Shown in pieces: positions 4,040-31,800 of a stretch of 64,000 nt of DNA. The notes below the pieces were generated by a model, which was not told the origin of the DNA, searched no databases, and saw only the letters and a list, made by a program, of their open reading frames with translations. Where the stretch lies: the NCBI RefSeq assembly GCF_026151205.1, contig NC_087072.1:4884084-4948083 (forward strand), in the 5' to 3' direction. The first letter of the stretch is position 1, and the number at the start of each line of letters is the position of its first letter. A program made the position numbers and the translations under genes. Origin of the DNA: Bolinopsis microptera (taxonomy: Eukaryota > Ctenophora > Tentaculata > Lobata > Bolinopsidae).

Positions 4040-5290
4040 TGCATCGCGCTACAAGTTTAAAGCTGTTATATTTATGTTTAGAACTCACTATTGTTTAAAC
4101 TATGAAAGCAGAACGTAGGTAATGGACAATATACCGACGACAATACCAAGGACCCGAGTGCCACAATGACTTTTCCGGATCTAGCGTGTCATGTGACCAA
4201 ACAGTTTTTTCCCCATAACTTTCCAGGGAAGCATTTTTACTCTACGTCATGGGGTGGGGGGATTCGGAATCAGCGTCCAAAAATACTTTAAATTGATACC
4301 TTCAGGGCCTTTTCACAAAAATTTTCTTAAAATTTGGGCTTGGTTGACGATGTCAACCCATCGAGATCGTTGCTTTGCGAAGTAGAGCAAGAAGTCCTCC
4401 AAAATTTGGGCGAGCGATTTAGTGGAAGCGACCTTATCCACATATTTTAGTAAAACAAAAATTGTATATTTAAAATATACGGGTCTCCTGAATACTGGTG
4501 CAGCTCAGTAAAATGTTCTCCATCGCTTAATCGTAATTTTATAATCTTATCAGTGTCCGGGACTACAAAATATGGTTTATTTGATTATTCTCAACCTTGT
4601 ATTGTTTAACAGGAAATAAGCCATGAATAGTTACTGAGTACAGCAAAAGGGTCTTGCAGTCCAGGACTAATGAAAATAAAATGAGAGAGAGAGAGGTAAT
4701 ATTCCTTTAAGGAAGCAATATTACCCCAACTTTCACTTTTTTCAGATCTCTTATCACTACTTTCAGATCTCTTATCACTACTTTCAGATCTCTTATCACT
4801 ACTTTCAATTCGTTTTAAAAATCTTGCTCTGCCTATTTATTGAAATTTGAAGACATGTCTCATCATGGCAATTCTCAACAAAACTCGGATCGCCGACAGA
4901 GCAAGGCTTCCCGTAATTCCTACTGTCCCGTGACTTCTCAGTTGTGAAACTAATGTAACAGAACATGAGTCACAACCATTTTACATACCGGGTTATAATA
5001 AATTTGTACTTAATCGATTATTGAAGGAGGATGGAAAGCTTAAACACAAAGGTTCTGGTTTGGTAACGTTTTTGCGTGACAAATTTAATAATATTAATCA
5101 AAAATTTGAGCTTTGTTATTCTACCGTTGATTTTGAATCACTTTGTGTTGAAATAACAGTTAAATCTGAAAAGTTACTAGTTGTTAATTGTTATAGATCA
5201 CCAAGTGGAAACTCTGATTCATTTATCGATATGTTTGGCAGTATCTTAAGTATATTGAACACATTTAAGGGACACAAAAGCTATATTCTT
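4040..5290 (+). repeat. 1.25-kb direct repeat, right copy
   Basis: Indistinguishable by eye from 2590-3840. Unlike the left copy, it continues without a break into the rest of the LINE ORF2 (GGTGACTTTAATG follows at 5291). This is therefore the original junction and the left copy is the truncated duplicate. Its upstream portion may be the 5' untranslated part of that LINE. Confidence 0.85.
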
Positions 5291-7371
5291 GGTGACTTTA
5301 ATGTAAATCTATATAACTCCAATTCTAGTGTTGTTAGGAGATATTTAGACTGCATGTTTAGCAATAACTTTTTACCAATTATCTCACGTGCTACTCATTT
5401 TGGAGGCTTAAATGGCACATGTATTGATCATATACTTACTAACAATATATCTAACATAATTTGTAACGGCCTTATACGATGTAATATAAGCTGTCACCTT
5501 CCTACATTCGTAGTTTTGGACTATAATTTTGATCCTAACGAAAAGTGTAGAAATAGAAATAAAGTAAATATTAATGACTTTTTATTACAAGGGTTTTTGA
5601 ATGATTTTAAATTATTAAAATTTGATCTTGAAAGTGATTCTGCCGAAAATATGTATTCCTTTTTTGACAGAAATTTTAAAACTCTGTATGATAAGTGGTT
5701 TATTAAAAGTCAGAAGTCTAGTGGTAATAATTCTCTTCTTCGCTCTGATTGGATTTCAATAGGAGTGGCCAAGAGTAGTGACACTAAAAACAAACCCTAT
5801 GATATTTGGGTTATGAATAAAACTAGAGTTAATTGGAACAAATATGTTGATTACAAACGAGTGTTTGATGCTATTAGAAGTAAAGAAAAATTTGAGTATT
5901 TTGATAAATGTTTTAAAGCAAATCAACATGATTTGAAAAAGACTTGGAAACTGATAAACGGTTTACTAGGTAGGAAGAGATCAAACAGATTACTAGTTTT
6001 TCCTAATCAAGATGCAGCGCATAATTTTAATTATTATTTTGTTAATATTGCTAATGATCTTTTACTAAAAACGTATGGTGAAAATGCTAACGCGGATTTA
6101 ACAGATTTTAATAAATATATGCCTGAGAGGAACATAAGCGAGCTATCGGATATTAATTTTTCAAGTGAAGAAATAAATAATATTATAAGTAAGCTTAATA
6201 ATAGCAAGGGTACGTATTATTCTCCTAGGGTCCTCAAACTTTTAGCTACCACTTTAAGTCCTTTACTGGCTGATATTTTTAATAAATGTGCAAATGAAGG
6301 TTATTTTCCGAAAGAATTAAAAGCAGCAAAAATAATTCCTTTGTATAAGAATAAAGGATCTATTTCTGATATAAGCAATTATCGTCCTATTTCAATGTTA
6401 CCTGTTTTTGCTAAGATTTTCGAGAAGTTAATACATAAAAACGTATCTGATTTCTTTAATAAGCACAATCTTTTCTGTGATAATCAGTTTGGTTTCCGCA
6501 GTAAGCACTCAACCTTTCATGCACTTGTTTCAGCAGTAGAAAATCTTCATGATGCTATCGATAATAAGAATTTTACATTAGGTATATTTATAGATTTTTC
6601 CAAAGCTTTCGATACAGTGCGGCATAATATCTTGTTAGAAAAGCTGGAGAACTATGGTATTCGAGGAAATGTCATTAAATTATTAAACAGTTATTTATCA
6701 GATCGGTTTCAGTATGTTAGCTATGGGGGATTCGAAAGTTGTCTCTTGAAAATAACCTGTGGTATTCCACAGGGGTCAGTGTTAGGCCCCCTGCTCTTCA
6801 TTATTTTTATCAATGATTTGGCAAATATTTGTGAGTTAGCTAAATTTATCCTCTTTGCAGATGATTTAAACCTTTTTCTTCAAAATAAAGACCGAAATTT
6901 ACTCTACAAAAATGCTAATGAGGTATTATCAAAGATTCACGACTATTGCTGCTTAAATAGGTTAATCATTAATTTTGAAAAATGCTGTTTTATGGAATTC
7001 GGAAGTAGTAAAGTTCCTAAGAATCAAAAGTTTGTTGGAATACTTAACAACCAGTTTAATCAAGTGAATAAGTGTAAATTTTTGGGAGTCATTATTAATT
7101 CTAATTTAACGTGGAATGATCATATTACCAATGTAATAACGCAAGTTTCAAAATCTTGCGGATCACTCTACTCCATAAGTTCTATAGTACCAGCCAAAGT
7201 GTTAAGACAAGTATATATTTCACTTGTTCAACCATATTTAATGTATTGTATACCACTGTGGGGTGCTGTTTTTCACCATCCTTTGCTGCAAAAACTGTTT
7301 GTGTTGCAGAAAAAATGTATTCGTATTGTGAGTAGAAAAACAACAAAGATTGATCACAAGTTTCAACATAC

Positions 7372-8788
7372 AGTTACAATCTTTTATATCAGTTACAATC
7401 TTTTATTCAGTTACAATCTTTTATTCTAGCTTTTGCAACATTTTAATTGCTCTCTTATCGGTAGTGTTATCTCAACTTGCTGTTACACCGACACGTCGTG
7501 CTGTACGCCTTGGCTTTTGTAAAATGGATTTTTCCGTCGAACATCTGAACAGATTTGAAAAGGAGCTATCGTCAGCGATGAATGAGATTTTGAAGATGTC
7601 AAAAGCACAAAGCGTTACAGAACTGAATCATTCGAGATTAATGGCTGTAAATAAAGATCCCTTGGCTACTGCAGTTGAAAATCTTTCTAAGCTAATGACT
7701 AGTAATCTTGAACTTTGTAAATGTGCAGCCAGTACGATAGACAAACTTAAATCAGATCAGCTGAACTATCAGAAAGACCAGATTAAACAGCAACAGGAGC
7801 AACTCGACTCTTTTAAAACAACTGTTCATACCGAGATGAAGACAGCGTGGAGCGATATCGTGAAGAAGAACTGCGAGACAACTACAAGTACTCCGTCGAT
7901 CAACAGTATAAAAACAGCTGTGAAAACCGTAGTTGAAGACGACATCCGTAGTAAGAATTTCATTATCTACGGTGTACCGGAGAATTATTCCCCTGATCCA
8001 CACTTAGTGGCAGAAGAAGTGATCGAATTGATTTGGGAATCCTCAGGGTGTGATCCTAAAGTTGTGGCAGCAAATTCTATCGGGACTAAAATAACTTCAG
8101 GCAGTGGTAAACCGAGACCAATAAAAGTGACATTGGCTTGCGCGGAATCAGTAAAAATGGTTCTTGCTCGAGCAAGAAATCTGAAGAAATCTAAATGTAC
8201 AGCGTACCACACATGGTACATCACACCTGATAGAAGCAAGGAGGAGAGAGCAGCTCATCAGAAACTTGTTGTCAAAGTAAAGGAAATGATCACTGATGAG
8301 CCAAAAAAGTATCATTATATTAGAGACGGCAAGATTTTCAGTGTAGATAAGGTTAAGGTGTAACATTCGGTGTTTTTGATATCTACATAATTACTTTGAT
8401 TTAAATGTGTGTATGGCTCTTATTTATGGCTGTTGCGTGTATTTGTTGATTACGGCTAATAACGAGGAACTTTTAATTGTGAGTTAATAAACTGCAACCG
8501 TGATTGTAACTCAGGTATGTGATGACTTGTGGAGCACACATCGCTGAATAGCAATCGCGAAGCAGGTCTCACCAAGGCTAGGTATATTTAGGGTTTTTAT
8601 TTTTCTGAGGACACTTTGCCAGTAGTTTAACTTTTTGTGTTGTGTGCTACGGTACAGTGTTTCAATTTTTGGATAAAGTGGTATGTTCTATCTTTCTATT
8701 TATTTATCTAATTCTAATGTAATATTTCAATATTATAGTAAACATTAACCAGTGTACCAAAAGCTGGTCCCCAAACAAACAAACATAC
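7372..8788 (+). mobile_element. ORF1-only LINE (HAL1-like) inserted in LINE ORF2
   Basis: An insert of about 1.41 kb flanked by a 7-bp duplication AACATAC (7365-7371 and 8782-8788). It starts with three tandem copies of an ~18-bp AGTTACAATCTTTTAT unit, carries one ORF1 (7524-8363) and no reverse transcriptase, and ends in an (AAAC)3-like tail just before the duplication. Its last ~40 bp (GTAAACATT... then GGTCCCCAA and CAAA) resemble the 3' end of the intact LINE near 50852-50892. This suggests it borrows that family's machinery. The HAL1 comparison (LINE derivatives keeping only ORF1) is from general knowledge; the relationship here is inferred. Confidence 0.7.
7524..8363 (+). CDS. LINE ORF1 protein (coiled coil plus RRM-like domain)
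   Basis: 279 residues from the ATG at 7524. The same frame runs upstream to 7350 through repeat sequence, so I chose the ATG that begins MDFSVEHLNRF. Residues about 40-125 are heptad-rich and glutamine-rich (QKDQIKQQQEQLDSF), consistent with a trimerising coiled coil. Residues about 145-230 look like the RNA-recognition fold of LINE ORF1 proteins (NFIIYGVPE, then RPIKVTL). The end (ERAAHQKLVVKVKEM...YHYIRDGKIFSVDKVKV) is the usual small C-terminal domain. The expected role is binding LINE RNA as a chaperone in the RNP. The frame is intact, with no ORF2 behind it. Confidence 0.8.
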   Translation: MDFSVEHLNRFEKELSSAMNEILKMSKAQSVTELNHSRLMAVNKDPLATAVENLSKLMTSNLELCKCAASTIDKLKSDQLNYQKDQIKQQQEQLDSFKTTVHTEMKTAWSDIVKKNCETTTSTPSINSIKTAVKTVVEDDIRSKNFIIYGVPENYSPDPHLVAEEVIELIWESSGCDPKVVAANSIGTKITSGSGKPRPIKVTLACAESVKMVLARARNLKKSKCTAYHTWYITPDRSKEERAAHQKLVVKVKEMITDEPKKYHYIRDGKIFSVDKVKV

Positions 8789-10872: not shown

Positions 10873-13800
10873 ATGTCAGCAACCTCGACAAAGACCCATT
10901 CTGCGTCCAGCAAGTCAAGCCGACGTGTAGCTTTCGCAGATGCTGTCTCGGATCACAATTCTGGTGTAGGGACTGAACTTGAAAGTCGGGTTAGTCTTTA
11001 ATAGTGGTTTAGAACATTTATGGATACATAACAACACTATAGTAATATGATGACCTGATTTACAATCGTTTACTCTCAATTGATTGATGATCATGGATCA
11101 TCTTATGATTTGTTTTCAGAATGAGAGTGTTCTTGATTTAGCAGACATGGATCCAGGGGACCAGGTAGTACTGGACATGGCCGACCACCCTCCAGCTCCC
11201 ACAACTGCAGCTAGTGATGGTCTGGAGTCTGCTTTAACCATCTATACTCCTGGTATGTTAACTTGTGCAATCATTTCAAAAACGGGTAATCATTTGGGTT
11301 GGGAGCCGGAAATGTGTGAACTGTGATTGAAGTTGTGATTTCTTCTATCACTACGAATTGCTAGTTGTATAATGATTTGAATATAGTGCTGTATTTAACC
11401 AGGTGATGAGATGGTGCACATTCCTCAACTAGGAGGATTGAGAAGGGAGAGTTGTGAGTGGACTAACACTAACCTGCCTTGTATCAACAAGGTATACCTT
11501 CAAACACTTGCTTTATTTACCACAATACTCATCCAGTTCCTCCGGCAGATGTTTAATGATGTACCAACCAGCTTTATGTCCAAAAACCGGATTTGAAAAG
11601 ATAAGTTTTATTTTTCGAAATAAATTTAGCATCTGATTACAGCATGTAATTTCAGGTAGCTGCCCATCTAGCAGCATTACAGCGTCAGCTGGAAGTACCC
11701 CGAGAGTTGACGTACGATGAAATGGGGAGATTGGAGAACATGGTCGGCCCTACTCCTGGCATGGTTAACTCCATCAAAGTCACCTCTCTTACTTCCAATC
11801 CGGTATGTTACTCTCTCCTTGAATTACTCAGATTATCTCGAATATAACTTGTGGTTTAACTTCTGAATGATCGACAATTTATTTATTTAATGTTACATAT
11901 AACTGGAATTACATTTTTTTTCCTTTTCGTTATTTGTCACAAAATAAACCAGAAATATAGATCTAGGTAGTAGAAGCTGTAAACGATTTCAAACGGTGTA
12001 TTGAACAATTCCATAGCTTTAAAATGTTTACTCAAAAACAGCAAAGATCAAATTTGACGCTGGTCAGTTATAGTGCTATGTTAAATCCATAAAATATCCT
12101 TTTTCTTCAGTTAAATGGAATTCTTTAAAATCATGTCTGTTATTACAAGTATCAACTATCAAGTCTATCAAAACATTTAAAAGTTCGTACATAAGTAAAT
12201 AAACCTAGATACCATCAGTGGTATCAGAGTGAAGGGAAGACACCACTTGATTTAATCTGCTCCTAAGAAAACGCCTGAAACTCCTCACCGTAACGCTGTA
12301 TATAAAAACATTTGATGTGATGCTGAACCAGAGGAATGTCCAAGCTATTCTGTAGAAAGTTATTAAAGCTGGATCACTTCCCCCTATACTGTCTTGTAGA
12401 AGGTGAAACACGATGTAAGGCATGGTAGAGATAGAGTAGATAGTGGCCGTCAGTATTACAGTGATAATACCCTGTACTGGGGCAGTTCCACCGCATCTTT
12501 TGGCAACTTTCTTAGCTTCGAGAAGGTGTTTTACTAAAACGGTAGTACAAAAGATGATGCTAAGATTTGGAAAAAGAATGAAAATGACGTTGGAACCGAT
12601 TACTAACCAAGTCAAACGGTTAGCAAAACTAAAGTCGCAGGTGTAAATTCGGTAGTCGAACAGAATGCCTTCTCTTCCAAAACTGAGAAAAATGGCAGAA
12701 ATAAGCAAAGCAAATAACCAAATTCCGGCACATACCACTTGGGCTTGTTTCCTTGACAAATATCTGGTTTTGGCAGGATACTTTAACAGCAGCACTTTAC
12801 AGATCGTCATAGCGCAAATAAATAAAAAGCCTACAAGGAATGCACAGTGGGGGGAATGCAACGTCAATTAATGTCAGTATTCCATGAAAACCCCAAACTG
12901 ACATTGACATTAATTGACATTAATTGACATTATTTGACATTAATTGACATTAATTGACATTAATTGACATTAATTGACATTAATTGACATTAATTGACAT
13001 TAATTTGTCTTGAAATTTGAGATTATCATTATTCGATAAATATTCAAGATATTCACGTCTATGTAAGTTAGACCGGTTCAAAAAAACAAAATGTCCTTGA
13101 ATAATTATGAGTATATAATCAAGAGGCTTACATATGAACATATTGACATGGCTGTAGAGTTGAGCCTGTACGGAACCTAGTAGTTTCAGTTCCTTGTTTA
13201 ACTTGCCGTACAGCAAGGACATTCACTACTTTAGCCCGGCGAGGCACATAGCTCACTCCACAACTCCGTGTCAAATGTTTCATATATACTAGCCAAGAAC
13301 ACAAGATATATCCTTGTGTGTTTGGGAAGCGCTCATTACCGGTCATTACATCATTACTGATGCAGTCAGGCAGAACTGCTTCCTATCCCTTCAGTTTCCC
13401 ACAGTCTCTCGAGCTTCGTAACTGCCAGAGAAGTCTCTTAAACAATTACTAGACCCGGTGATTATATAATCAAGAGGCTTATGTTCTTATCTGTTGATCC
13501 TTAGGTTCAAAGACCACAACAAAAAATTTCAGCTTCCAACTCTTCCATCTTCGGTCTCCACCGGCCACGCCCATATTTTATTGGTTTCTTATACAGGTAA
13601 AATATCTAGAATCGGCTTTTTTAGTATGAAGGAGTAATGTTAGCTGTTTAAGATTCGTTATTCAAATATAGGGGGGGGTGTCACGTCCGTCTATGTCCGC
13701 TTGTCTCATAGAATCCAAAAAGGACAGGACATAGGCGGACATAGGCGGACATAGGCGGACATAGGCGGACATAGACGGACATAGGCGGACATAGGCGGAC

Positions 13801-16800
13801 ATAGGCGGACATAGGCGGACATAGGTGGACATTAATGGACACCTAAATTGCTAAATAAAATGTTCAATTTTTGCTGTTATAGGGGGATCATGTTTTTTGT
13901 CCGTTTGGTACCCTATATTTTCAAAACGGACAAAAAATAGAGCGGACAAAAACGGACAAAAATGGACAAAAACGGACAAAAATGGAAATAATCCTACTCT
14001 TCCTCCTCCTCCCCCTGGGTCTTCCTGATCTTCCTCAGTCCTCTTCCTCCTCCCCTCCTCAGTCCTCCTCCTCGTCCTCAGTCCTCCTCATCAGTCCTCA
14101 ACAGTCCTCCTCCTCCTGAGTCCTCCTCCTCCTCCTGAGTCCTCCTCCTGGGTCCTCCTCCTGGGTCCTCCTCCTCCTCTTCATCCTCCTCCTCTTCCTC
14201 CTCAGTCCTCAGTCCTCCTCCTCATCCTTCTCCTCAGTCCTCCTCCTCCTGGGTCCTCCTCCTTATCCTTCTCATCAGTCCTCCTCCTCCCCAGTCCTCT
14301 CCCAGTCCCCCTCCTTCTCCTCCTCCTATTCAGTCCTCCTCCTCCTCAGTTCTCCTCAGTCCTCTTTCTCATTTCTCATAAGTCCTCCTCCTGAGTCCTC
14401 CTCCTCCCTCTCAGTCATCTTCCTCAGTCATCCTCCTCAGCCATCCTCCCCAGCCATCCTCCTCAGCCATCCTCCTCAGTACTCCTCAGTCCTCCTCCTT
14501 CTCAGTCATCGTCAGTCCTCCTCCTCAGTCCTCCTCCTCCTCCTCCTGGGTCCTCCTCCTCCTCCTCCTCCTGGGTCCTCCTGGGTCTTCCTGATCCTCC
14601 CCAGTCCTCTTCCTCCTCCCCTCCTCAGTCCTCCTCCTACTCCTCCTCCTCGTCCTCATTCCTCCTCATCAGTCCTCAACAGTTCTCCTCCTCCCCAGTC
14701 CTCCTCCTCCTCCTGGGCCTTTTCCTGGGTCCTCCTCCTGGGTCCTCCTCCTCCTGGGTCCTCCTTCTCCTCCTCAGTCCTTCTCCTCCTCCTCCTCAGT
14801 CCTCTTCCTCCTCTTCCTCCTCCTCCTCCCTCTCAGTCATCCTCCTCAGCCATCCTCCTCAGTCCTCCTCCTTCTCAGTCCTCCTCCGATCCTGAGTCCT
14901 CCTCCTCCTAAGTCATCCTCCTCAGTTCTCCTCCTTCTCCTTCTAGGTCCTCCTTCTGGGTCCTCCTCCTCTTGGGTCTTCCTGATCCTTCTCCTCCCTC
15001 TCAGTCATCCTCCTCAGTCATCCTCCTCAGTCATCCTCTTCAGCCATCCTCCTCAGCCATCCTTCTCAGCCATCCTCCTCAGTACTCTTCAGTACTCTTC
15101 AGTACTCTTCAGTCCTCAAAATGTTTGTCCGCTAATGTCCATCAATGTCCGCTAATGTTCACCAATGTCCATCCAAGTCCGCCAATGTCCGTCCGGGTCC
15201 GCCAATGTCCGTCCGAGTCCGCCAATGTCCGTCCGAGTCCGCCAATGTCCGTCCGAGTCCGCCAATGTCCGTCCGTGTCCGCCTATGTCCTCCTCCTACT
15301 CCTCCTCCTCGTCCTCATTCCTCCTCATCAGTCCTCAACAGTTCTCCTCCTCCCCAGTCCTCCTCCTCCTCCTGCGGCCTTTTCCTGGGTCCTCCTCCTG
15401 GGTCCTCCTCCTCCTGGGTCCTCCTCCTGGGTCCTCCTTCTCCTCCTCAGTCCTTCTCCTCCTCCCCCTCAGTCCTCTTCCTCCTCTTCCTCCTCCTCCT
15501 CCCTCTCAGTCATCCTCCTCAGCCATCCTCCTCAGTCCTCCTCCTTCTCAGTCCTCCTCCGATCCTGAGTCCTCCTCCTCCTCAGTCATCCTCCTCAGTT
15601 CTCCTCCTTCTCCTTCTAGGTCCTCCTTCTGGGTCCTCCTCCTCTTGGGTCTTCCTGATCCTTCTCCTCCCTCTCAGTCATCCTCCTCAGTCATCCTCCT
15701 CAGTCATCCTCCTCAGCCATCCTCCTCAGCCATCCTTCTCAGCCATCCTCCTCAGTACTCTTCAGTACTCTTCAGTACTCTTCAGTACTCTTCAGTCCTC
15801 AAAATGTTTGTCCGCTAATGTCCACCAATGTCCGCTAATGTTCACCAATGTCCATCCAAGTCCGCCAATGTCCGTCCGGGTCCGCCAATGTCCATCCGAG
15901 TCCGCCAATGTCCGTCCGAGTCCGCCAATGTCCGTCCGAGTCCGCCAATGTCCGTCCGTGTCCGCCTATGTCCCAAAAAACACGTCCGTTGTCTCATAGA
16001 ATCCAAAAAGGACAGGACATAGGCGGACATAGACGGACATGACACCCCCCCCCCAATATAAATGTCATGAAAGCATTTCGTTTAATGTGGGTTTTAAGTT
16101 CTGATGATGTTGAGAACCACGCCCTTGGATGGCCACGGCCATTTAAGAAAATTAAATTTCGGAAAACCGTATTATTTTAGTTTTATTGTTTAATCTTTTG
16201 ATGATCTACATTTTTTTCACATTTCACATTTCTATATGTGATAGTAGTGAATAAATTGATGATATAAACGTTCTAAAGTGCTAAAAATATGGTAGAACTA
16301 CATAATCTCTGGTCGAAAAATATCGTGTCAATTAATGTCAGTATTCCAAAATTTTGCAAAACTGACATTGACATTAATTGACATTAATTGACATTAATTG
16401 ACATTAATTGACATTAATTGACATTAATTGACATTAATTGACATTAATTGACATTAATTGACATTAATTGACGTTGCATTCCCCCCTGCACAGTAGCTCA
16501 TGAAAACCCTAATGGTACACAAATGAAGCCCAAAGACCCATTTATTTGCTATGAGAGATGTTATAGATGGGAACAGGGAAAATACACACAGTATCAGATC
16601 AGAGGCAGCTATGTGTTCTATGAACACAACAAGGGTGCTATGAAGTTTGAAAGCTCTGTGCTTTACAGATCCAATAAGTATGGTACTGTCCCCGATTATA
16701 GAAGACATCAGGACCAAGATAAGCCATACCGCCCAAGTCTTCCTAGTTACAACGTCCTGGACTCCAAACATGGTGTAGTTGGAATAGTTGGCCATCTTGA

Positions 16801-19800
16801 ATTTACCTGAGATTCTGAGGTGTGTGCAAATTATAAATAGTTTATAATTAGTTATTATATATCAGGACATTTTAATCGAACGAATAACTGAAAAGTTGAT
16901 AAACGCGGTTATAAGAGACGAAGGTATTAGTCGTAAGTTTAAATTACCTTTTTGTATTGACTATTATATAATCAGCAAGAAAGCTTTCCGCTCAATTTAA
17001 AAAACGAAAATTAAGTATAACTGTATGTAGACACCTGATAGCGACATGTGCCAGTTGTGCCTCATACACAGGTGCATCATCTAGAGATACATGCATTCTT
17101 AGTTAAATATAATATTACAATTATATGCTTGAGTCATGAGTGGTAGCAACAACAGCATTTACAGCAACAGAAAGGTTCACAAATGAGAGAATTTTGCTGA
17201 AATTTACAGCAACAGAAAGGTTCGCAAATGACAGAATCTTGTTGACGTAATATGTGAACGGTCCCTAAACACAAAACACGTGAGTGCTGTAGCGACATTC
17301 AACAGGTGCCTCACAGAGATACAGAGTGCTTAGTTAGACGTAAGAATTCTAGAAAATTAAGTAAATAAATTAGATTTTTTGCAACATTAGACTTGTCTGG
17401 TATTTCAGACCAGTGCGACCCGACCCGGACCATAGTTTTTTAATTAGGATAGTGCCAGGTGATGTGGAACATGTAAGGTGTAAGCAACAATATTACAATA
17501 AGACCGAAAAAAGTTCACGACTTAATGAGATTGTTACGTTGTAGATCCTCATGGTTTGTTTCATAAACAATTGAAACAATGTTGTTGAGTAATAGCGTTA
17601 GACTGTGAACTCCATGCTACAGTGCAATAGGTTTTAGTACTATCGTGGTCCCATTTCAACCTCTACACAATAATGAAACGTGACAGCTCTGGACAATATA
17701 TGTGTGATATTGTAACCTTGCTAAAGAAAAGTCAGCAGAAGTTGTAATATTCAACAATTTGGTCCTCGAACAGTTGGCTCAACACAACAGTGGTTTGTAG
17801 AAAACAAGGTTCATAACATTTGGCCTCATCTGTACCAGCTATTTGACCAGGTTTTACTATGGTAATAGCTAGAAAAATTACTGCATGCAGTTATGTCCAT
17901 GAACCTGTGTATGAATATTATAATGACTGAGATATTGACCAACCACTTAGCTTATATTAAGTAAAGTGACATTCACTTAGCCCCTACAACCCCGCCTGCC
18001 TAAACCTTAAGTACCAAACAATGTTTTAAATCCCCCCATTAACCACAGCTGACCGTACACAGGGACTAGAAGTAGTGGACGAAGTAAAGACGCTGATAGC
18101 GCGGCTGGAACAGGACAGACAACAGACCATCAGGGCCTATCAGAGAGAGGTAGAGCGAGTCAAACTCCTCCAAGTTCAGGTGGACAAGGTGGAGAGACGG
18201 AGACTTTATATTTTACCTAAAGCTGTGCAACTTGGTGAGCTTGTCATGGCTTTGACGATGGTTTCAATGTTATCATTTTGTTTTCTCACGTTGCCGGCCA
18301 ATTAGCTATCCTGTGACTGAGCGTTTTATGATGTTGGGGTCACCTAGTTTATTTTTTATCTACCGCATGGCATATGAGGTGAATGTTTGTCATGTTTTCA
18401 GGACAGTTCCTCAAGACATGACAAACAGTTCAACAAGTGACATGACTATTTAATGAGAAGGAATTATTCTCATTAAATTATCATGTCATGACGTGTCCAA
18501 CTGCTAATATAATAAGCTGCTTAAATTTATAATTTACGTTTATCATAAATACTATAAGTAATAATATAAGTGAGTTTTTCTGTCACTGAGTAAGATGGGA
18601 TATTATTTGGTTTCAAAGTTTTTTATTTATCAGCTGTCGAAAAAAGATTTTAAAATTAAGTTACAATTTTTTTTGAAAATTCTTTGATTAAAAGTAGGTT
18701 TAGTTTTAAACCATCTCCATCTTCAGAACACGAAGCGTGTACACAAGATATCTCGGAATTAAGGTGGGATCTAGATAACTGGTTGGAAGAGAAGAAGGAG
18801 ATGGAGAAGCAGGTTCTTGCTGCAGTAGATAAGAACAGAAACCTTCAGAGCTCTATCGAGGAGCTAACTGCACAGTGGTGAGATAGTTGTGTAAACTTTT
18901 AGAGGGGCCAGTTATTATCGTTCTCGATAATAATTATTTATAGCGATTTCCCCCCGATTTGGCAGCATAAAGTAAATGGGGGCTGGGCCGCCAAATATTG
19001 AAACTTATAATAATTTTCCGTCCTAAATCATGTTTTTCCTGTTTTATGAAATTATATCCATTATCCATGATACCTCTACATCAGTCCGAATATCAAAGAG
19101 AAACTTGAAATCGACAAGGAGTGTTTGGAGGGAATTTCAGCTGACCTCAAGGAGGTACCATATTATTATTATCAAGATTTTTTACTCAAATCAGAGTTCA
19201 CTCAGATTGCATAATACGGAGATTTATTACCTCATTTCTGCTAGAAACATTCTCAATGAATTTGTCGAGTTATTTACATGTGTTTTTAATACCGATTTTC
19301 AGAGTAAGTTAGCACTGAAATATACTCAAGATTTATACGCCAAAGCTAGACTTAAGCTTAAAAAGGTAACGCAGATCTGTGATTTGCCCAATTTTGATTA
19401 ATTTAATCGTATATTACTTGACTTGACCCGGAATTCAGGCAAAGGCACAGCTGGAATCAGTTCATGTTGAGATGAACGAAGCTAAGAATAAGTCCAGTTT
19501 GGTAGGCCATGCCTTGAGCATTTGTATACGTGTTGTCCAGAGTAATATTAGATACTTTGTGTACAAGTAGTAGAGACTCCATTTCAAGTTGGTGGTTGAG
19601 CTGAACATTGACTTTCTCCTGATATTTTTGTGGGTACTTTGACAAGAAACATTATTGAATACTGAATACTGTATAGTGATTAGTGATGCAGCTCTGTTTC
19701 AGCCACCAATTTGAAATGTGTCCATTATAGTATTTTGTGGGCGATGTAAGTGTTGTAACCTATGTTTGCTGTTACGTTTGAAATGTAGAATGCACTGAAG

Positions 19801-22800
19801 AGTTTGTGACTGAATTTTAGTTTAAAATATGGCGTTTTAAACTGTGTGCAAGTTATTTGCATGCCACAAGAGTTGAGTGGTGTAAGAATGTAAGCATGTT
19901 TAGAATTTGTCAATCTCGGCAGAGTTGACTGCAAAATACTAGCACAACCTGAGAATATTCAATTTTGCACGAATCGCATTGTTTTCAGGAGCCCAAAAGT
20001 AGACTCCAATAAAACTATAGATCTAATACAAAATGTTCAGTGCTTTTTGTAACGACTTCATCTCAAGGCGGACGGCAGAGCTGAGTCAGAGAGGATACAG
20101 TTAAGAAGTGAGCTGGCTAGCATCAGGAAGACATTGGCCGGAGTTCAGTAAGTGACAAGCATATCTTATACTTCTTGTTAATACCGGGGTTTAGCTCTCT
20201 CTTTCATGAACCACCTACAATAACATACACTCAGTCGTTTTGATGTCTGATCTTGAAGGATCATAAAACACTCCCTAGAGGTGAGCTGCAAGAGGCTGAA
20301 GATGTCAACGCTACACACAATGCTGACATAGAAGAGCTCAACAACGCGATAGATACTGCTAAGATGGATGGGAGCGTTCTTGGTTAGTTTTCTCATTACA
20401 TGGCTATTGTCATCTTTTAAGGAATCATTCACTTTCCAAATCATAATTTTTAGATATTTAGGATAATGCACTAAATAATGTTGGTGACGTTGTTTTTTCT
20501 CGGCTGAAAATTAAACTAATGTTTTCAGACAGTGAAATAGCAGAAGCAAAGAAACAAGAGAGAGAATCTCAATCGAGGGTTTGTTTCTCAAGTTCACTAG
20601 GCATACCTAATAATTACAACACTTTTCACCTTAAATGTCATATTGCATATTACATATTATTACCACACATAAATAATGCGAATTTGCAGCGACTTTTGTG
20701 GAATAATCATCCATCTAGGTTCTCAGGGATAGTTTATCTTCTGAATCCGATATTTCTCAATTTAGGAAACAAGTTTCCATGAGTAAAATACTGTATTATA
20801 TACTAGATATAATAGGTGACCGATTAATATTAGGAGATCGAGTTGCGCAAATCACCTCATCCAGATTATGCTTTGTAAGCAAAATTGTCGTGTTTTTTTG
20901 GTAAAAATTTGGTCCTGATCGGATTTTTGATAAGAATCATATATCAGTCAAAATGAAAAACAAAGTAATGTTAGAATATACGAAAAAATAATGTTGTATA
21001 GTTGTATGCTTTCCAGATCTTCCAAATTCGAAAGATTTGTTCAATCTTAGAAACAGACATGTATTTTACGAATTTAAACTGGCTTTACATTAAAACTGGC
21101 TTACAGTTGGAAAACTAAAAATAATCGTGAGTTAGACCAAACCCTCGTTAGGCCAATCATACAGTGCATATTAAAGTGTATTATGACACTTTGTGTTCAC
21201 ACAAGAGTAGTGATTTGGTTGACTAAAAATCCAATATCTAAGTTAAAACTAAGAGTTCCATATCAGTGAGGAAGATTCCAATACCACTTCTCGTCACCTA
21301 GCAGATCAACTAGGTCTCTGAGATAGGGTTTGAAGAACTTCTCAAGTAATTCAGTCGTTTCCGTGAGAACATAGGGAAGCTTCTTGTTATTACTCATCGC
21401 GTTTTTTATCTTATGCTGCTCCAAAATGGTTTGCAATTCGTCATCAGGAAATCGTGGTATCTCCAGGAAGTCACAGAGATTATTGTAAGTTGTGATCGGG
21501 TCCCGGATACGTTCCTCCATCTGGAGTATATAGATCTGATTCTTGGGAAACACCTTCATGTAGTCGAGAATATAGACATGGTAGATACTTGCATATAAAT
21601 GGGTCGCTAGTTGGTGGGTTTCAGTGCTATAAGTGCATCCTCTCAAAGTGTTCACTTTCAGGCAGTTATTAAACTTATCAACCGCCTCCACCACCAAATT
21701 ATGATATTTCTCCGGTGTAATGGGCCTGTCGCAGTTGTAGGTATAAATATGGGTACAGAAAAACTGGTACGCTGATTGCATCCGCTTTATGGGGTCCCGC
21801 AAGGAGAATATAAATTTGGTTTTAGGATTAAGTTTTGCAAGAGTGTCTGCGGTAGTCACTGGTGGCTCTTTGTAACCGGGGTGAAAAGTTTCCCAAAACT
21901 CGTTGTCCCATACGTGGGAGGGGGTAGCGTCCACAGTGATTCCGTGAAACAGGACATCTGTTCCTTCAAATTCTTTATATGTCTTCATCAATTTGTCTCG
22001 ACATGGTCCGGAATTAGAATAACCCATAAATGACGTGGGATTTTTGTCGGGCATTCGGTGCATTCGAATTGACCTTCCCCTCCTTCCCCTGTCAAAGTAG
22101 TGTGTTTCTTTCTTGGATCGGGCGCTTATGAGGATATGTTCGTTGAGTATGAAGAATAAATCTGTCGTTCCAGCTTTTGTGAAACCGATGATGTAAAAGT
22201 AAGGTAAGCAAAACATGGCCTCCCGGTCAAGAAGATCATTTCCTTTCCAGCAGGGGTTCTTAAATTCTTTCAGAAATTCTTCTTCTGGTGGGAGAAAGGT
22301 GAACATGTCTTTAGGATTTTCTGTGATATGCTCTTTTTTCAGAGTTCTCCCGTTCAGGTAACAAAAAGTGTCATTACAGTTCATCTCGTTCGGATCACCG
22401 AATGTAGATTTCTTTGGTACTCCCCTTTTTAGCATCTCTACATTACTTGGTGCGTATTTTAGGAACTCAATTTTCTGGTGCTTTTCAGTAACGTTGAAGA
22501 TATTTGTATCGTTAACTTCTTCTAATTGCTGAACGAATGTTTCGTAAGGAGTGTCGGACGTTTTGATTTCATTCTTCGTAAAAATGTTGGATGCTGATTT
22601 GGTGATCACGTCTCCCTCTACGTTCTGTCTGTCGCTAGGTACAGTGTTCTTGTCGATCACAGCTCCTCGAGGTTGAGAAGTGAGAGTATCATCAATATCT
22701 AAGATTGTTCCAGTTCCATCTAGCTGTTCTGTGGAATCCTTAACATTGTCACGGACTTGATCTGTATTGTTGCTTAGAAATATGATATGGTCTTCAGTTG

Positions 22801-25800
22801 CACTTGAAATGTTTTTAAAGTTCTCAGTTTCTAACAACATCTTTATGAACTGGAAAGAAGCAATGAGGAGCAAGATCCAGACAACCTTACTTTTCAGCCC
22901 TCTGTGGGATATTACCATCTCCGAATCCTCTTCAGATGGTAAGGCACACCCAAACTCTGCAGGAATTATAGAGTAAGTCAATTTGGAGCTGGTGGAATAA
23001 TTTAATTTAATTTAAGTTTTAAATGAAACTGAACCTCAGCAAATGTGGACAGTACAGCAAATAATTTCAATCACAAGTGTTTCCGCGGATCTTAAGCATG
23101 ATATAATGAAGTGTACTGATCAGAGCATGCGTCGAGAAAACGGACGCAATTCTTGTTAAAATTTAAATACTGATCAGCGTGTTACTACAATCATTTTGGA
23201 GCAAATATGAATAAACTACAAGGTGGTGGAACGAATTCATCCACCTATATAAGTTACATGTATGAGACAATAATCATCATGCATCAGGGACACAGCATAC
23301 ATTTGAATAACACCATTATGGCCTAATTATCCTTTATCAAGTCTTAAGAATATAACATAAAATGAATGTCACTTAAATTTCAAGGCCATATTAGTCATGG
23401 ATCTTAGAATATTCCCGTAGACACGTCTTCCGCCCCGAGGTTTGAGACCTGGAACGGCTCGAGAGACCCCTCAGAAACAAATTTGGCTTGGGTAGACTTT
23501 CTGAATATGGGACAGTTTTGGGCAATTGACCACGCCCTTTTTTGGCGCTTTCGCGATATCTAAACCCACATATCACAACCTCTGATTGGAGAAAAGAGAT
23601 CAACTTGGGTATGAAAATGGTCATAATCAACATATTTCAAAGTCCTTACACTTAAGTTTGATGAGTTATATGACCACACCCTTTTGCGGTCTCACGAGTA
23701 ACAATTATCACACTTATTTCAGGATATCTCAGCTTCTAATTAAAACGCTCATCTTGGCATTAAAATGGTCAGAATCATTACATTGAGTGGGGTAGAGAAT
23801 GGTTTTAAAGTCTACAGACTTCAGGTTGTTGAGTTAATAGGTCAGACTTCATTTTATACGCTTGTATACAAGCACCATATACATTGTACAAGCACTATCT
23901 ACAAGCAATAAGTACAAACATAAAACTTATAGAGAAAGTTCTGACTTTGGCACTTTAAAATTACCCGATTCCTCTATCAATAGCCTAATTGTTCAAGCAA
24001 CAATATCACCTATGGGTAAGATAAATACACGTTAAGGCATCACGCTTATAGTTATACTTTATTATTATATTTTGAAGGTGATCTATGTCCATACACTGCA
24101 CTATTACAGACAATTTAAGGACAATGGAGTTGAAATGATATGGATACGGATAGCTAGTGGTGCTAAGAGTAGGTTAATATCAATATATCACCTATATAAT
24201 AACAGGATGCCCCGACCATTGGTAAAATTTTTACTTGCAGCCCATATTGCCACAGGATGTGACACTGCGTCAAGAGTAGGTACCAAATTTGCGTCATTGA
24301 ATGCTATTCCTGAAATGTACCTTGAAGGCTTTGGTAAAGGAGAACTCGATGAAGCAGAGGTCAAGAAATGCGAGGAATACTTGGGGAAAGTTTTCAAGCT
24401 TACAAGAGACATTTGACATGTTAAGAGCCTATAATCAATATAGAAATAATGATTCTATGTTTGACTTGCCACCAACATCGCACTCTATTGTACACATCCC
24501 CAGTGCAAAGGGCACTATCTCGTAAAGGACCAGTACAATATCCTAAATAGAAACAGCGTACCCCTAGATCCTTGTGGTTTTCAATGGGTACTAGAAAATG
24601 AAGAACTTTTTCCGGTAAAACATCTTCATCCTCTTCCTGGAGAATAGAACTAACGGTTACATGTTCATGTTACAAGAACAAAGATATCGACAAAATTGTG
24701 GTGGCAGATGCAAATGCTCAAAGAAAGGTGTGCTTTGCAATGCTTATTGTGTCTGTCAAAAGATTTGTTGCAACATGGACAAAGATAGAGGCCCACCTAA
24801 GAGAAAGCAGTCATTGACATCTTTAAGAAATAAACGTAGAAAGTCTAACAAAGAGTAACAAAGAGTAAATTCCTAAATTTCCTAAGGTATTGATCAATCA
24901 TATGAATGAAACAATTTTAATTTTCTTGAATATATAGGTCACACAATAAATATATAGGTCACACAATAAATATATAGGTCACAAACAAACAAAAGACAGA
25001 CACAATGAGTTAAGATACCCCATGATTTAAGTGTGTATGTACTATGTTTAATAAAAGAGAGTTATAGGAAAGTAATGTGAACTATACAGTATACATCTTG
25101 ACGACATGCCAAGTGACCGAAGTAGTGACAACTAGAAAATAAGTGAAAAAAAGTCTCCAGATGCTTCTGTCGCGTTAGGTGGAAAGGGGTCAGGCAAGTA
25201 GATTAGTGATTTTTCTTTTGCATTCGCGGCCAAGAAAAATCACTTGCTACTGCAAAAAATAGGGTTTGACCTAATAACTCAACAACCTGAAGTCTGTAGA
25301 CTTTAAAACCACTCTCTACCCCACTCAATGTGATGATTCTGACCATTTCAACACCCAATAAGAGCGTTTAGCTCCAATTAGAAGCTGAGATATTCTGAAA
25401 TAAGTGTGATAATTGTTACTCGTGAGACCGCAAAAGGGTGTGGTCATATAACTCATCAAACTTAAGTGTGAGGACTTTGAAATATGTTGATTATGACCAT
25501 TTCCATACCCAAGTTGATCTCTTTTCTCCAATCGGAAGTTAACATTATATGTGGGTTTAGATATCGTGAAAGCGCCAAAAAGGGCGTGGTCAATTGCGAA
25601 AAACTGCCCCGTATTCAGAAAGTCTACCCAAGCAAAATTTGTTTCTGAGGGGTCCCTTGAGCCGTTCCAGGTCTCAAACCTCGGGGCGGAAGACGTGTCT
25701 ACGGGAATATTCGCAGATCCTTGATTATAACACTAAATCGCTGGCAAGTCCCACGTGCAATGTTCAGTTGTTTTAGAATCTGGATTGTTATGACGTAGGC

Positions 25801-28800
25801 ATTAACTTGACGTGATGAGTGTCATGTGAATGCTACGTTGTACCTTGCAATCATGTCACAGAATATGACATGTAAGACGGGCTCCATAGGGAAATAGCAT
25901 CAGTGATGGTCCACACTTCCCGATCTTTCAAGTATACTAGCTACGAGGAGTTTCGAGATCATGGGATGTTTTCAACAGAAGCTAACTGCATGCAGTTCGT
26001 CGAACTTGGCGGTTGGCTGCATCCAGGATTTTTAGCTCCGTGATGGGTCGTTTCTGTAACCAGGTTCTGCCAGATATCTTGACAGTCTTCAAGATCTCTG
26101 GAAGCTGGAACAGATTGATTGATTTGAAGGGAGATGTAGAGGATAGTTGAACGATAGCTGCAGTAGGTAGCTGTATCATGTAGTTAGCTTCTGTTGAAAA
26201 CATCTCATGATCTCGTCGTAGCTGGTATACTTGAAAGATCGGGAAGTGCGAACCATCACTGATTACTAGTTCCCTAAGGAGCTCGTCTTATATTCCATCT
26301 TCTGTGACATGATGTCAAGGACCAAGGTACAAGTTACAACGTAGCACGGAAATGCCGCGACAGTGCCATTCGGATCCGGATGTATGACCGCCACTTGCAG
26401 TAATAAAGTAAAAAGACACAAAATCAAATCGCAAATTTAAAATGAACACGTAGTAACTAATATCACTATCACAACAGCATAGTTATAACTCATATCAATA
26501 ATGCTAATAATAATATGAGGTGGTACCTATTTATTATTTAGTGTACTTTAGTCGCATTGTTCAGCACATGGAGTTCTGCGTCAGGACACTACAAACAGCC
26601 CTCTCCGTAACATACTGTTCACTTTTTGAAGATATTATAACTGTATAGTGTATACTAGTGTAACCTGTGCATACGGCCGGAATTTCACTATCGCAGTTGA
26701 AATGCAAAAGCCTATTATATTCGAAAACACGCATTACATTTTCTTAGTTAAAACTTTGCGAAAGTATGAACTCGTTCAGTCCAAACAGACTGCAATTTAA
26801 TTTTGGGAGCCCCTCACATATCTATAAAAAGAAGATATATATATTTAAAAAATAATAATAGGAGTTATACGAGAATGCTGAGGATGGCACTTAACATAGA
26901 CTGAAAAGAGCGGCAGACAAACGCCAAGGTATATATGGACACCTCATCAGAGCATCTGATAAGATAGCTGAACGGAGGATGAGACTCGCTGCGAGTCTCA
27001 TCCTCCGTGAGTCACTCGCAGGTCATCTAGCCAGACATGAAGAACTTCTGAGACATCAACTTCTCTTCTGGGAACCCCTTCAAGGACATCGTCGAAGGGA
27101 AGACCACACCTCACATATATTGACATCCTAGTCGGAAGGACACGAGGCTTGACGAAAGCAAGGAGATTAACAAACTCATGCTGGATAGACAGATTTGGGA
27201 AAAAACTATCTCTGTTCGGACGTTGAAGCCGCCCTTAGTCTTGAAGTAAACCAGTTACCACCGACCGATTTAAAAAAACTTAATTATTTGGCTTCGTCAG
27301 AGTTTTGTCGGCATTATACCGAAAAAACCAGTCGCATATCTCTTACCGTTTTCTTGATTTAATTTAACCGTTCGGAAATTTCTCAAAGACAAACAGACAC
27401 ACAGACACATCCTTGGATTATTAGTATATAGATTATCATAATATAAATTATTTCGATGAAAGATTTGGGTGGAACACCTTAATATTATGTCTGGTTCATG
27501 TCTGCTATGACTACCTCCTCTCCAGAGACAGTGATAGTGATATCAGGGTTAGGAAAGGAAGAGCATGGGGAGCATGCCACACTCTCAAAAAACTTTGGAA
27601 ATCTAATCTTAGAAAGTCTATCAAGACCAGCGTGTTCACAGCACTAGTCGAGTCGGTGCTTCTATACGGTTCCGAGACTTGGACTATGACGAAAAGGCTA
27701 GAGACGATGGTTGATGGTTGCTATACACGAATGTTAAGAATGGCCCTTTAAAACATCAATCAATATCAAGACCATGTCAGCAACCACAGCCTGTACTGTG
27801 ATCTTCCCAAAGTCAGCTCCAAGATTACCCAACGAAGGCTCAGACTTGCAGGTCATGCTCACCGACATCCGGAGCTGACACTGAACAAACTGATCCTCTG
27901 GAAGCCGAGTCATGGACATACTAACAGGGGGCGACCTTACTTAACACTACTAGATAACCTAAAAGCAGATACTGGGCTGAAATCAGTAGATGAGATAGCT
28001 AGACTGATGGAGGACAGAAAGCTGTGGAGAACTGTTGTCAATGGATCTCGTGAATACTACCCGCCTCAAGTCAAGGAAGTCAAGTCAGTCTAGTAAAGTA
28101 GTAATGTGTCTTGCAGTTAACATTAAAATGAAGGCCAACCCAATAATGAAATATCAGGACATTGGCCTCTTTACTTTAACATGAAAATATCATCCTCTAT
28201 TCCCTCCGAAGGTTGTAACATTTTGCTAAATTATTGTAAAGTTAGCAGGTAGGTCCTGTACCATAATCCATATTACTGATCATTTCTATTTACTGGTATT
28301 GTTATCACCCAGACATCTATGCAGACATTTACTTAATTTCTTCCAGAGGTCTTCCATGTGGTGATGAGAGCAATCAAATGTGGTCAGCACCTCTCACTTT
28401 ATTATCGTTACGTTATTATTAACTCATTATATTTAAGTTATACTCATCTGCATTATTCCGTGCTGTGACCTTCTACTTGTTCGTTTTGTATAGTTGTATG
28501 TATAATTGAGTGTTTTAGATGCATAGTAGTACAGTGTGACGCTATAATTGTAGTTGGCTCTCTTATTTCTAATCATCGATTAGTTGTTTAAGATAATAAT
28601 AACTAGCATCAGAATTTATGAATTGAAATTAAGACGTCTTCAGAATTAAGGGCCCATAATCTAATTCTGTCCAGCCCAAATGACTCACAGAAAGTTCAGT
28701 GACCATCTTGGGTCATTTCCACATAAGCATAATATTTTTTACGACAAAATTATATCAAATCAGGAAATGCTCGTTTGTATTATATTATTGATTTTGATGT

Positions 28801-31800
28801 TCCTGGAAATTTGCTTATTCTATAAATCCTGCAGGTGTGCCTCGGCTTATTCGGCGAGAATGGTTTTATTTAGCAGATGGCTGAAAAGTAAGGTTGTATG
28901 GGTCTTGCTACTTTTTGCTAGTTTCCATCTCATAATGATCTTGTCACAAACTGAGAATACTATAAGAAATTCAAGTGGAGCTGAGGACGACCAGCTTGCT
29001 GTCGACAGAAGAAATCGATTCAGTAACATTTTGAGTGACGTCACAGTAAAGGTTTTAGAAGCTGACGGTATATTAGGTAATAAAGCACCTTCAAGTAAGA
29101 TCTACGAGAAAAAGAAACCCGTCATCGGTTTAGGAAGCATAAACACAAAAAGGATGAAAAAATCAGCGATGAAACAATTGCCTAGTTCTATACCAGGAAA
29201 TTTAACAGAAAATAGAGTAAGAACGCAAGATATACCCTACAAATCATTTTTCTCTCAACCAAGGCCAATGAAAGTCATTGAAAACCTTCCTGAAAAGTAC
29301 CAGAATATCGGGTTCTTAAAGAAGCAGCCAAGTTATGAGGAAATGAACGTGGAGGAAGCAATCCCACAAAGGACTTCATTCGGTGATCCGAACGAGATGA
29401 ACTGTAATGATACTTTTTGTTACCTGAACGGGAGAACTCTGAAAAAAGAATTAATCACAGAAAATCCTAAAGACATGTTCACCTTTCTCCCACCTGAAGA
29501 AGAATTTCTGAAAGAATTTAAGAACCCCTGCTGGAAAGGAAATGATCTTCTTGACCGGGAGGCCATGTTTTGCTTACCTTACTTTTTCATCATCGGTTTC
29601 ACAAAAGCTGGAACGACAGATCTATTTGGACTCCTCAAAAAACACGTCCTTATAAGCTCCCGAGCCAGGAAAGAAACACATTTCTTTGACAGGAGAAGTC
29701 GAGGAAGAGCAATGCCAATGCATCGAGCTCCCCATGGTTTGCCCAGATCATTCAGGTTCTACGCTAATAGAGGTTCGTATCGAGACTATCTGATGCCAAC
29801 TTACCAAGAAGTTGAAGGAACGGATGTCCTGTTTCACGGAATTACTATGGACGCTACCCCCTCCTACGTATGGGACAACGAGTTTTGGGAAACGTTCCAC
29901 CCCGGTTACAAAGAGCCACCAGTGACTACCGCAGACACTCTTGCAAAACTTAATCCTAAAACCAAATTTATATTCTCCTTGCGGGACCCGATCAATCGGA
30001 TGCGATCAGCGTACCAGTTTTTCTGTAAGAGTTTGCAAACATACAAGTGCGACAGGCCCATTACACCGGAGAAATATCATAATTTGGTGGCGGAGGCGGT
30101 TGATAAGTTTAATAACTGCCTGAAAGAGAACACTTTGAGAGGATGCACTTATAGCACTAAAACCCACCAACTAGCGACCCATTTATATGCAAGTATCTAC
30201 CATGTCTATATTCTCGACTACATGAAGGTTTTTCCCAAGAATCAGATCTATATACTCCAGATGGAGGAACGTACCCGGGACCCGATCACCACTATCAATA
30301 ATCTCTGTGACTTCCTGGAGATACCACGATTTCCTGCGAGGATATTGAAGAAGATTTTTGAAGAGCGGGAAGGAATCGCAAGGAATCAGATAAGTGATGA
30401 ATTGAAGATCCCCTATGTTCTGCCAGAGACAACTAAACTCCTTGAGAAGTTCTTCAGACCGTATCTCAGAGACCTAGTTGATCTGCTAGGTGACGAGAAG
30501 TGGTATTGGAGTCGTCCTCACTGACAGAAGAACTGATGTAGATCGGTCATTAGCACCTTTGACCGTTTAACCATATAAAATTCGAGCTAATCAAGTTTTA
30601 TGTTTGCAGGGTTCTATGACATTTTAAACCACAAAGCTTTCAAGTGTGTAGTATTAAGGTATTAACGTTAGTAATATTTGATTCAATTGGAAAACTTACA
30701 AATTTTATTGGAGCGGTCTTGTGAACTAAACCTCTTTGAGGAGCATTCCCTAACAGCCAATAAAGCTGGCATACGATACAATAATATGATGTGACATAAC
30801 GTATTCATATCATTATTTACACGAAACAAAACACTCGGAACACTGGCGAGCTAACTGGTTAGCTAACGAGGTTTTCTTTGTATATGGTAGCTTGCGACCG
30901 TGCGAGCGTGCGTGAATACGTGCCCGCCCACGTTCCTACCTGCGCAAAGTTATTTTGAGTGATAATCTGAATTACCTTACTCGGGATTATTATGACCGGG
31001 ATAAAGTGGTGGGTTTAGGGTAATTTCGCCATATTTTTCCCGAACCACATTTTCACCGGTCGTTAATAAACCCGCCTACTCAGCTTTTAGGGTTCCCAAG
31101 GGGTATGGGTGCTCATATTTTAATCGTTGTCTTATATTCACTAAAGAAGACTATTGGGACACTTGTTGTAGGTTTTTCGACTTCATTTGGCTAAAATTGC
31201 AATAAATTCACCTTTTTGCCCAATTCTTGTCATATATCCTTATTGTCAAATTTGATTTAAATAGGCCATTTTTTTATTTCTTAGGTATTGACTATCTCTA
31301 CATAATGAAATAGGACTCAAAGTAAAAGTAACAGTTAAATTAAAACTTGAATTAATTAAAACTGATGAAAGGGATGATCCAGATGAAGATAACGAAGATG
31401 ATTACAACTTATTGGAAGACTAAACATCTCTCCCTTTATCTTAATATCGATCTGGTTGTTACACTTCAAATGTTAAAAATTATTTTCGGGAAGTTGGTCG
31501 TTTAGCTCCGGACAGTCTATGCAACGTCTATGCAACGTCCGTGCAACAACAAAAGAACCGTCTATGCAACGTCTATGCAACGTCCCTGCACAATGAACAC
31601 TCTATGCACACTCCCTGCACGGTCAGTCTATGCAACGTCTATGCAACGTCTATGCAACGTCCCTGCACAGTACCATATGAACACCGGCTACTAGCCGGCT
31701 ACTAGCCGGCTAGTAGCCACTTTTGTAATAACAGATCCTCAACTTCACATTAACAACCGGCTACTAACCGGCACTTGAAAAGTGGTCACTAGCCGGCTAC

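Follow-up and report, generated by a model that had tools for sequence, protein, structure and literature searches.

Short-repeat arrays beside transposon ends are known from Foldback-type elements, from Tm1 and from Galileo (PMC3169594, PMC4079207), with TSDs (target-site duplications) of 8-10 bp in Tm1 and Tetris and additional transposase binding sites within the repeats of Galileo. Tandem repeats are also present in some families of Merlin, whose elements have 5'-GG ends and TSDs of 8-9 bp (PMC8101967). The present analysis concerns a transposon, termed the outer element, in a 64,000-nucleotide stretch of the genome of the ctenophore Bolinopsis microptera (contig NC_087072.1, positions 4,884,084 to 4,948,083; this whole stretch is the window), together with the inner element nested within it. 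A first-pass annotation of the DNA had put the outer element forward as a candidate new transposon architecture, a label that goes too far. Tandem-repeat ends as such are already known from Foldback, Galileo, Tm1 and Merlin; the family is new, as is the combination of parts, and the transposase lineage is possibly new too.

The outer element resembles Foldback-type elements (FB, Tm1, Tetris, Galileo; PMC4079207, PMC3169594) in having short tandem repeats inside its ends in variable number, but differs in that its arrays are direct and only a 28-bp TIR (terminal inverted repeat) is inverted, with no long inverted repeats of tandem units, and in that its coding relative, described below, matches neither MULE nor P models. 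It shows the Merlin end features of 5'-GG and an 8-bp TSD, and shares GG ends, 8-bp TSD and subterminal tandem arrays with the Merlin elements of this genome, whereas its TIR, its 10-bp rather than 11-15-bp units and the protein in its coding relative are different. In the Merlin elements of this genome (loci L037-L042 and L066-L071) arrays of 11-bp units (15-bp in L040) lie beside the transposase gene, and the one at L071:101-2552 has both ends and the TSD CGTATAGA. A non-autonomous Merlin-type element is also present in the window at 31488-32317, with the 8-bp TSD TTATTTTC, TIR GG[GC]AA[GC]TTGGTCG and 11-bp arrays in a near-palindrome.

Transposases of the DxxH group (hAT, P, MuDR, Kolobok, Dada) carry their catalytic motifs in the order D, D, DxxH, E (PMC3706591). 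The lineage discussed here is like that group in motif order (by eye) and in long TSDs, and unlike it in having no significant Pfam match, an 8-bp TSD and no small-RNA target as in Dada. Dada itself, with no TIR, insertion in small RNA genes and a 6-7-bp TSD (PMC3706591), was ruled out by the 28-bp TIR, the 8-bp TSD and the insertion into a receptor gene, and IS3EU (TA..TA termini, 6-bp TSD; PMC10045372) was set aside, the ends of both families in the window being G-runs. Coral CMITEs are likewise miniature inverted-repeat transposable elements (MITEs) with conserved internal structure, but those are related to piggyBac (PMC2872659). No description of the outer termini was found in titles and abstract openings of the open-licence literature; terminus strings of 15 and 20 bases were unmatched in open-licence papers, and shorter strings occurred in 13 papers, all of them on other subjects.

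The outer element and its insertion site

The boundaries, perfect inverted termini and 8-bp duplication (TGCACAGT) that the first-pass annotation had reported for the outer element were all borne out, the 28-bp TIRs being 100% complementary to one another (Table 1). The 10-bp arrays on each side were also confirmed, with a period of 10 and with 10.3 copies on the left and 10.6 on the right. Of the hairpin said to lie beside each end, the fold itself was supported on both sides by comparison with dinucleotide shuffles (DNA fold of -7 kcal/mol and z of -2.99 on the left, -9.9 kcal/mol and z of -4.37 on the right), but the position was correct only on the left, the right hairpin lying about 110 bp inward of its end. 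The left side reads TIR-hairpin-array and the right side hairpin-array-TIR; there is no mirror symmetry, and hairpin plus array form a direct repeat, the TIR being the only inverted part. The motif ACGTC-N5-ATGTC just inside the G-run was seen by eye to be common to the outer and inner families.

When the flanks were joined with one copy of the TSD kept, the empty site that the annotation had suggested checking was reconstructed as a single, uninterrupted minus-strand open reading frame (ORF) of 336 codons across the junction, running in window coordinates from 16861 to 16495 and then from 12848 to 12208, a range that fits the listed end of the ORF. The Pfam domain 7tm_1 covers residues 69-286 of this joined ORF (E 2e-20), spanning the join near residue 123. 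It follows that the gene disrupted by the outer element encodes a rhodopsin-type receptor, and that the boundaries of the element are exact. Insertion into the receptor coding exon was precise, with an 8-bp staggered duplication. The window copy is longer than the usual outer form because of two insertions, the inner element and a secondary insertion of about 0.37 kb having 23-bp direct repeats (13108-13130 and 13459-13481), to which, by eye, the full-length copy L021 has no counterpart.

The outer family and its coding relatives

The 264.65-Mb assembly, in which the window lies on contig C1 (26.2 Mb), contains 152 exact 16-bp outer ends (78 forward, 74 reverse) against 0 for a reversed control, so that chance does not account for them. 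Positions were listed for 100 of the 152 ends; 64 of these form 32 inverted pairs, 22 of the pairs being spaced 0.73-0.93 kb, and 36 are unpaired. Among the unpaired ends, 13 are in full copies from a DNA search, 4 belong to diverged copies of L005 and L006, 16 were fetched and 3 were unfetched; all 16 fetched begin as the same MITE, although L049 does so for about 160 bp only and L054 and L056 at 87-89% identity. The anticipated 8-bp duplication was present in 22/22 distinct insertions read with both exact ends, with the left end taken as G6; in four of them it looks 9 or 10 bp long through chance extra bases.

A DNA search with an outer copy, in which the best 40 of 562 candidates were scored, gave matches 92-100% identical to the query copy, and the central parts of eight full-length copies differ by a mean of 1.8% (range 0.7-2.9%; 12 copies were chosen and 4 dropped for missing anchor strings). 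The outer family is thus a non-autonomous, MITE-type DNA transposon, normally about 780 bp long and non-coding, and it is apparently young.

Array structure varies within the family, with 2-10 consecutive perfect units per locus (some loci overlap), and in diverged copies the arrays look decayed. One copy, L017, combines perfect ends and a TSD with the absence of both array and hairpin on the left, so that the left array may be dispensable or may have been lost later. Two small forms, L023 and L024 (about 160 and about 130 bp), consist only of TIR-array-hairpin-TIR with 8-bp TSDs, the hairpin being the right-hand one of the large form, and these may be recombination products or independently mobile. 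Loci L005 and L006 are identical over 7801 bp on different contigs, with diverged outer copies 7192 bp apart in the same orientation. That spacing was rejected as an autonomous element in favor of a larger repeat carrying diverged copies, and the larger pairs L007-L010 were likewise rejected, as they contain nested insertions or retroelement-like ORFs (by eye), with no ORF of more than 120 codons in L007.

A pattern consisting of a G-run, then ATGCAACGTC, then a base other than A gave six hits at five distinct places (control, one). Two places (L084, L086) are old outer copies and two others (L087, L088) are without arrays, while L085 is a 2.1-kb element with outer-type ends, hairpins, arrays, the TSD ATTTGGAT and coding sequence inside. 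The 204-aa ORF of L085 matched 121 stretches of the genome (more than one in certain loci; the best 150 of 159 candidates were scored), and at nine other places, three of them fetched, the match is 95-98% identical over about 200 residues. L089 (TSD TGTGGGAA) and L090 (TSD TGTTAGAT) are each complete, 2.07-2.09 kb long, and hold a 521-codon ORF; in a further coding copy, L091, the right end was not found. Of the full-length relative with a transposase that the annotation had suggested looking for, coding relatives between the same kind of ends were found, in truncated coding copies.

Over the first 70 bp, L085 and the window element are identical at 55 ungapped positions (79%), compared with a best value of 39/70 among 43 loci in a control using 70-mers beginning with G, the five top values of which came from inner-family loci including L083. 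The right hairpin of the window element is identical to that of L085 at 41/46 positions, and L085, L089 and L090 have their hairpins in the same direct order as the window element, decamer arrays and 8-bp TSDs. The outer family thus has a coding sister with nearly the same TIR core, hairpin order, decamer arrays and TSD length. By the Repbase rule a non-autonomous element is assigned to a superfamily on the same TSD length and alignment of positions 1-11 with at most one mismatch (PMC4455052). The TSD is 8 bp in all 22 outer insertions and in the three coding copies having both ends, and the window element and L085 agree at 10/11 positions at the left terminus, within the limit, and at 9/11 at the right, one short of it.

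Candidate transposase and rival explanations

Longer paralogues of the coding relatives' protein are found at L092 (766 codons) and, both in broken frames, at L097 and L098. Alignments read by eye place D301, DDGD at 437-440, DxxH at 486-489 and E663 in L092; in L097 and L098, also by eye, D, D and DxxH have spacing like that of L092, with E in L097 and in the second piece of L098. The motifs of the paralogues begin with a D in SIDATAV, SIDSTPV or AVDATAA, followed by a D in DDGD or GDGD, then DxxH, and finally E in SDxxEQ. The coding relatives had no match to hAT (PF05699), MULE (PF10551), Merlin DDE_Tnp_IS1595 (PF12762), P/THAP9-like or KDZ/Zisupton (PF18758) models; genome searches with PF21787, for the P/THAP9-like type, and for KDZ/Zisupton were empty, but the controls were silent too. 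With the coding relatives and paralogues as queries, Pfam gave nothing significant (lowest E 0.016, to DUF4902, at 15.6 bits against a cut-off of 25). For the transposase-like protein NCBIfam gave nothing, PDB a lowest E of 0.067 for one piece and none for L092 or the profile, and PHROGs one hit at E 0.093. Distances from transposase matches to ends were taken for outer ends on contigs C1-C8 and inner ends on C1-C3, usually with one end typed per pair. No MULE, Merlin or hAT match was nearer than 14.7 kb to a listed outer end, the nearest hAT match on C1-C8 being at 28 kb (best 150 of 366 candidates).

The outer element is probably a cut-and-paste MITE mobilized by a DDE-type transposase from the lineage that L085, L089 and L090 and the paralogues L092, L097 and L098 represent. 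A complete copy, not found here, would supply intact transposase in trans, and this protein would bind the TIR and the decamers of ATGTC-N5 or ATTAATG type, the array providing many in-phase sites at which protein would gather next to the point of cleavage at the G-run. The transposase would then pair the two ends, cut at the G-run and insert with an 8-bp stagger. The hairpins may mark the point at which an originally palindromic end flips direction. A 10-bp unit might place the sites on one helical face, as the annotation had considered plausible.

Several observations weigh against this assignment. In the coding copies read (L085, L089, L090, L091) the 521-codon form begins at the DxxH region and is without the first two acidic residues; therefore none of these is autonomous, and a complete autonomous partner of the outer family was not found among them, nor were convincing ends for the element of L092 found at its locus. 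The N-terminal half of L092 matched only five genome places, one of which is its own locus, and the near-identical coding copies are not among them. In an eight-row protein alignment, with partial pieces among its rows, D660 alone is invariant, and identity per column averages 21%. No profile library confirmed the protein as a transposase, and its decamer binding and its part in transposition are predictions. At the right terminus the window element and L085 agree at 9/11 positions, with two mismatches, and the outer ends examined for pairing are the 100 listed among the 152 exact ones.

One rival is movement of the outer element by a Merlin (IS1595-type) transposase, which its GG start, 8-bp TSDs and subterminal arrays, all as in the Merlin elements of this genome, would suggest, together with the 8-bp TSD of Merlin elements here wherever both ends were found (as in L071) and the presence of the outer-TIR 10-mer ATGCAACGTC in the array unit of the Merlin-type element at 31488-32317. 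However, Merlin ends here are GGCA(A/G), outer ends occur in 0/16 Merlin loci fetched (3.3-3.4 kb read, several elements running off the stretch), and on C1-C8 no Merlin match comes closer than 14.7 kb to any listed outer end. The Merlin explanation is further weakened by L085, L089 and L090, in which the same kind of ends accompany a different protein without PF12762, and it is considered highly improbable.

Two other explanations concern the arrays and hairpins rather than the enzyme. These parts might be by-products of slippage or recombination that are unneeded for movement, the TIR of 15-28 bp alone being recognized, as would be consistent with the variable number of perfect units between loci, the decay of arrays in diverged copies, and the perfect ends and TSD of L017. 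Array loss in L017 may postdate insertion, however, and arrays, hairpins and their order are common to the coding sister family, with left ends 79% identical over 70 bp; this explanation is a real possibility but is not the favored one. The form of about 780 bp might alternatively be a composite in which two small palindromic units (TIR-array-hairpin-TIR) in direct order surround captured DNA, their inner ends having decayed. The existence of L023 and L024 as such units with 8-bp TSDs, the direct repetition of the left and right blocks in the large form, and a comparable small unit in the second family (L083, without a clean TSD) all point in that direction, but L023 and L024 carry the right hairpin of the large form, so that recombination between direct repeats, in the manner of solo long terminal repeats, explains them equally well, and the two-block layout is already present in the coding sister. 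A composite origin is considered rather unlikely. Movement by the transposase-like lineage of L085 and its paralogues remains the preferred explanation for the outer family.

The inner element, other window features and significance

The inner element belongs to a second G-run family, with the end G(n)TGTCACGTCCG, for which 225 + 190 exact ends were found in the genome (415 left-type). Its G-runs are 6 to 50 bases long, and a 6-bp TSD is flush with the G-run in 12/14 two-ended copies read, one of the others having 5/6 positions matching and one none. ACGTC-N5-ATGTC within the G-run context (G or T after ACGTC) was found at four places, these being inner variants and L083, a small unit of the inner family like L023 and L024 but without a clean TSD. 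Three MULE matches lie inward of inner-family ends; two of the loci (L078, L079) were fetched and have inner elements complete without MULE, which leaves proximity only. A small G-run element of other sequence (GGGGGGATCATGAG...CTCATGA + 25 C) is present at L044:4949-5230, with an apparent 6-bp TSD, TATTTA.

A 12-base piece of the inner 13-bp pyrimidine-rich unit is present in the window and in 13/16 inner-family loci (not L030, L081 or L083), and also in L093, L094 and, once, L095, but in no other locus among those compared; L094 and L095 themselves showed no inner copy. In L093 (2020-6156) and L094 (2-2834) the TCC/CAG array runs straight into a transposase-like exon after CTTCAG, which looks like a 3' splice site, as if the splice-site tract of an intron had been amplified. 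This suggests, as a lead, an origin of the inner family in a different branch of that transposase lineage, one making 6-bp duplications, with the caveat that the array is of low complexity and that in L093 there is also an inner copy some 50 bp upstream.

Table 1. Positions in the window of the outer element, the insertions within it and the interrupted receptor gene
Feature	Position	Strand	Evidence or detail
Receptor ORF, C-terminal part (rhodopsin-type, interrupted)	12208..12848	-	joined-flank ORF
Left TSD of outer element, TGCACAGT	12841..12848	.	duplication and joined-flank ORF
Outer element as a whole, a MITE-type transposon without coding sequence, expanded by two subsequent insertions	12849..16486	+	
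Left TIR, 28 bp	12849..12876	+	100% complementary pair
Left hairpin block	12863..12908	+	DNA fold
Left 10-bp tandem array	12903..13005	+	10.3 copies, 97% matches
Secondary insertion (about 0.37 kb; 23-bp direct repeats)	13108..13481	.	
Left 6-bp TSD of inner element, AATATA	13665..13670	.	
Inner nested element, second G-run family	13671..16054	+	
10-bp array of inner element, unit GGACATAGGC	13727..13832	+	10.6 copies
TCC/CAG-rich array of inner element, 13-bp unit	13992..15117; second stretch 15288-15808	+	
20-bp (2 x 10) array of inner element	15820..15973	+	
Right 6-bp TSD of inner element, AATATA	16055..16060	.	
Right hairpin block, orientation as left one	16326..16373	+	DNA fold
Right 10-bp tandem array	16367..16472	+	10.6 perfect copies, 100% matches
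Right TIR, 28 bp	16459..16486	-	
Right TSD of outer element, TGCACAGT	16487..16494	.	
Receptor ORF, N-terminal part	16495..16861	-	joined-flank ORF and 7tm_1

Elsewhere in the window, one or more candidate elements at 23407-25712 carry perfect inverted repeats and are flanked by the palindromic 8-mers GAATATTC and ACTTAAGT, and a satellite-like array at 55280-57131 has about 18 copies of a 103-bp unit. ORFs of the sulfotransferase family at 21263-22981 (-) and 28680-30524 (+) are paralogue-like, and reverse-transcriptase-like ORFs were noted by eye at 5021-7429 and 47036-50527.

A broader proposal is that the protein of L085, L089, L092, L097 and L098 founds an undescribed eukaryotic DDE-DxxH superfamily, characterized by G-run termini, decamer arrays of ATGTC or ATTAATG type and a hairpin switch point, with two branches, having 8-bp and 6-bp TSDs, that would account for the outer and inner families as products of one new lineage. 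This is put forward tentatively and is judged unlikely as it stands. The analysis links a MITE architecture that had been an orphan with a lineage of transposase-like proteins that matches 121 stretches of this one genome but nothing significant in Pfam, NCBIfam or PDB. Should the lineage prove undescribed, the DxxH group would gain a branch. Arrays of directly repeated decamers would also offer a clean system in which to ask whether helically phased binding sites raise transposition.

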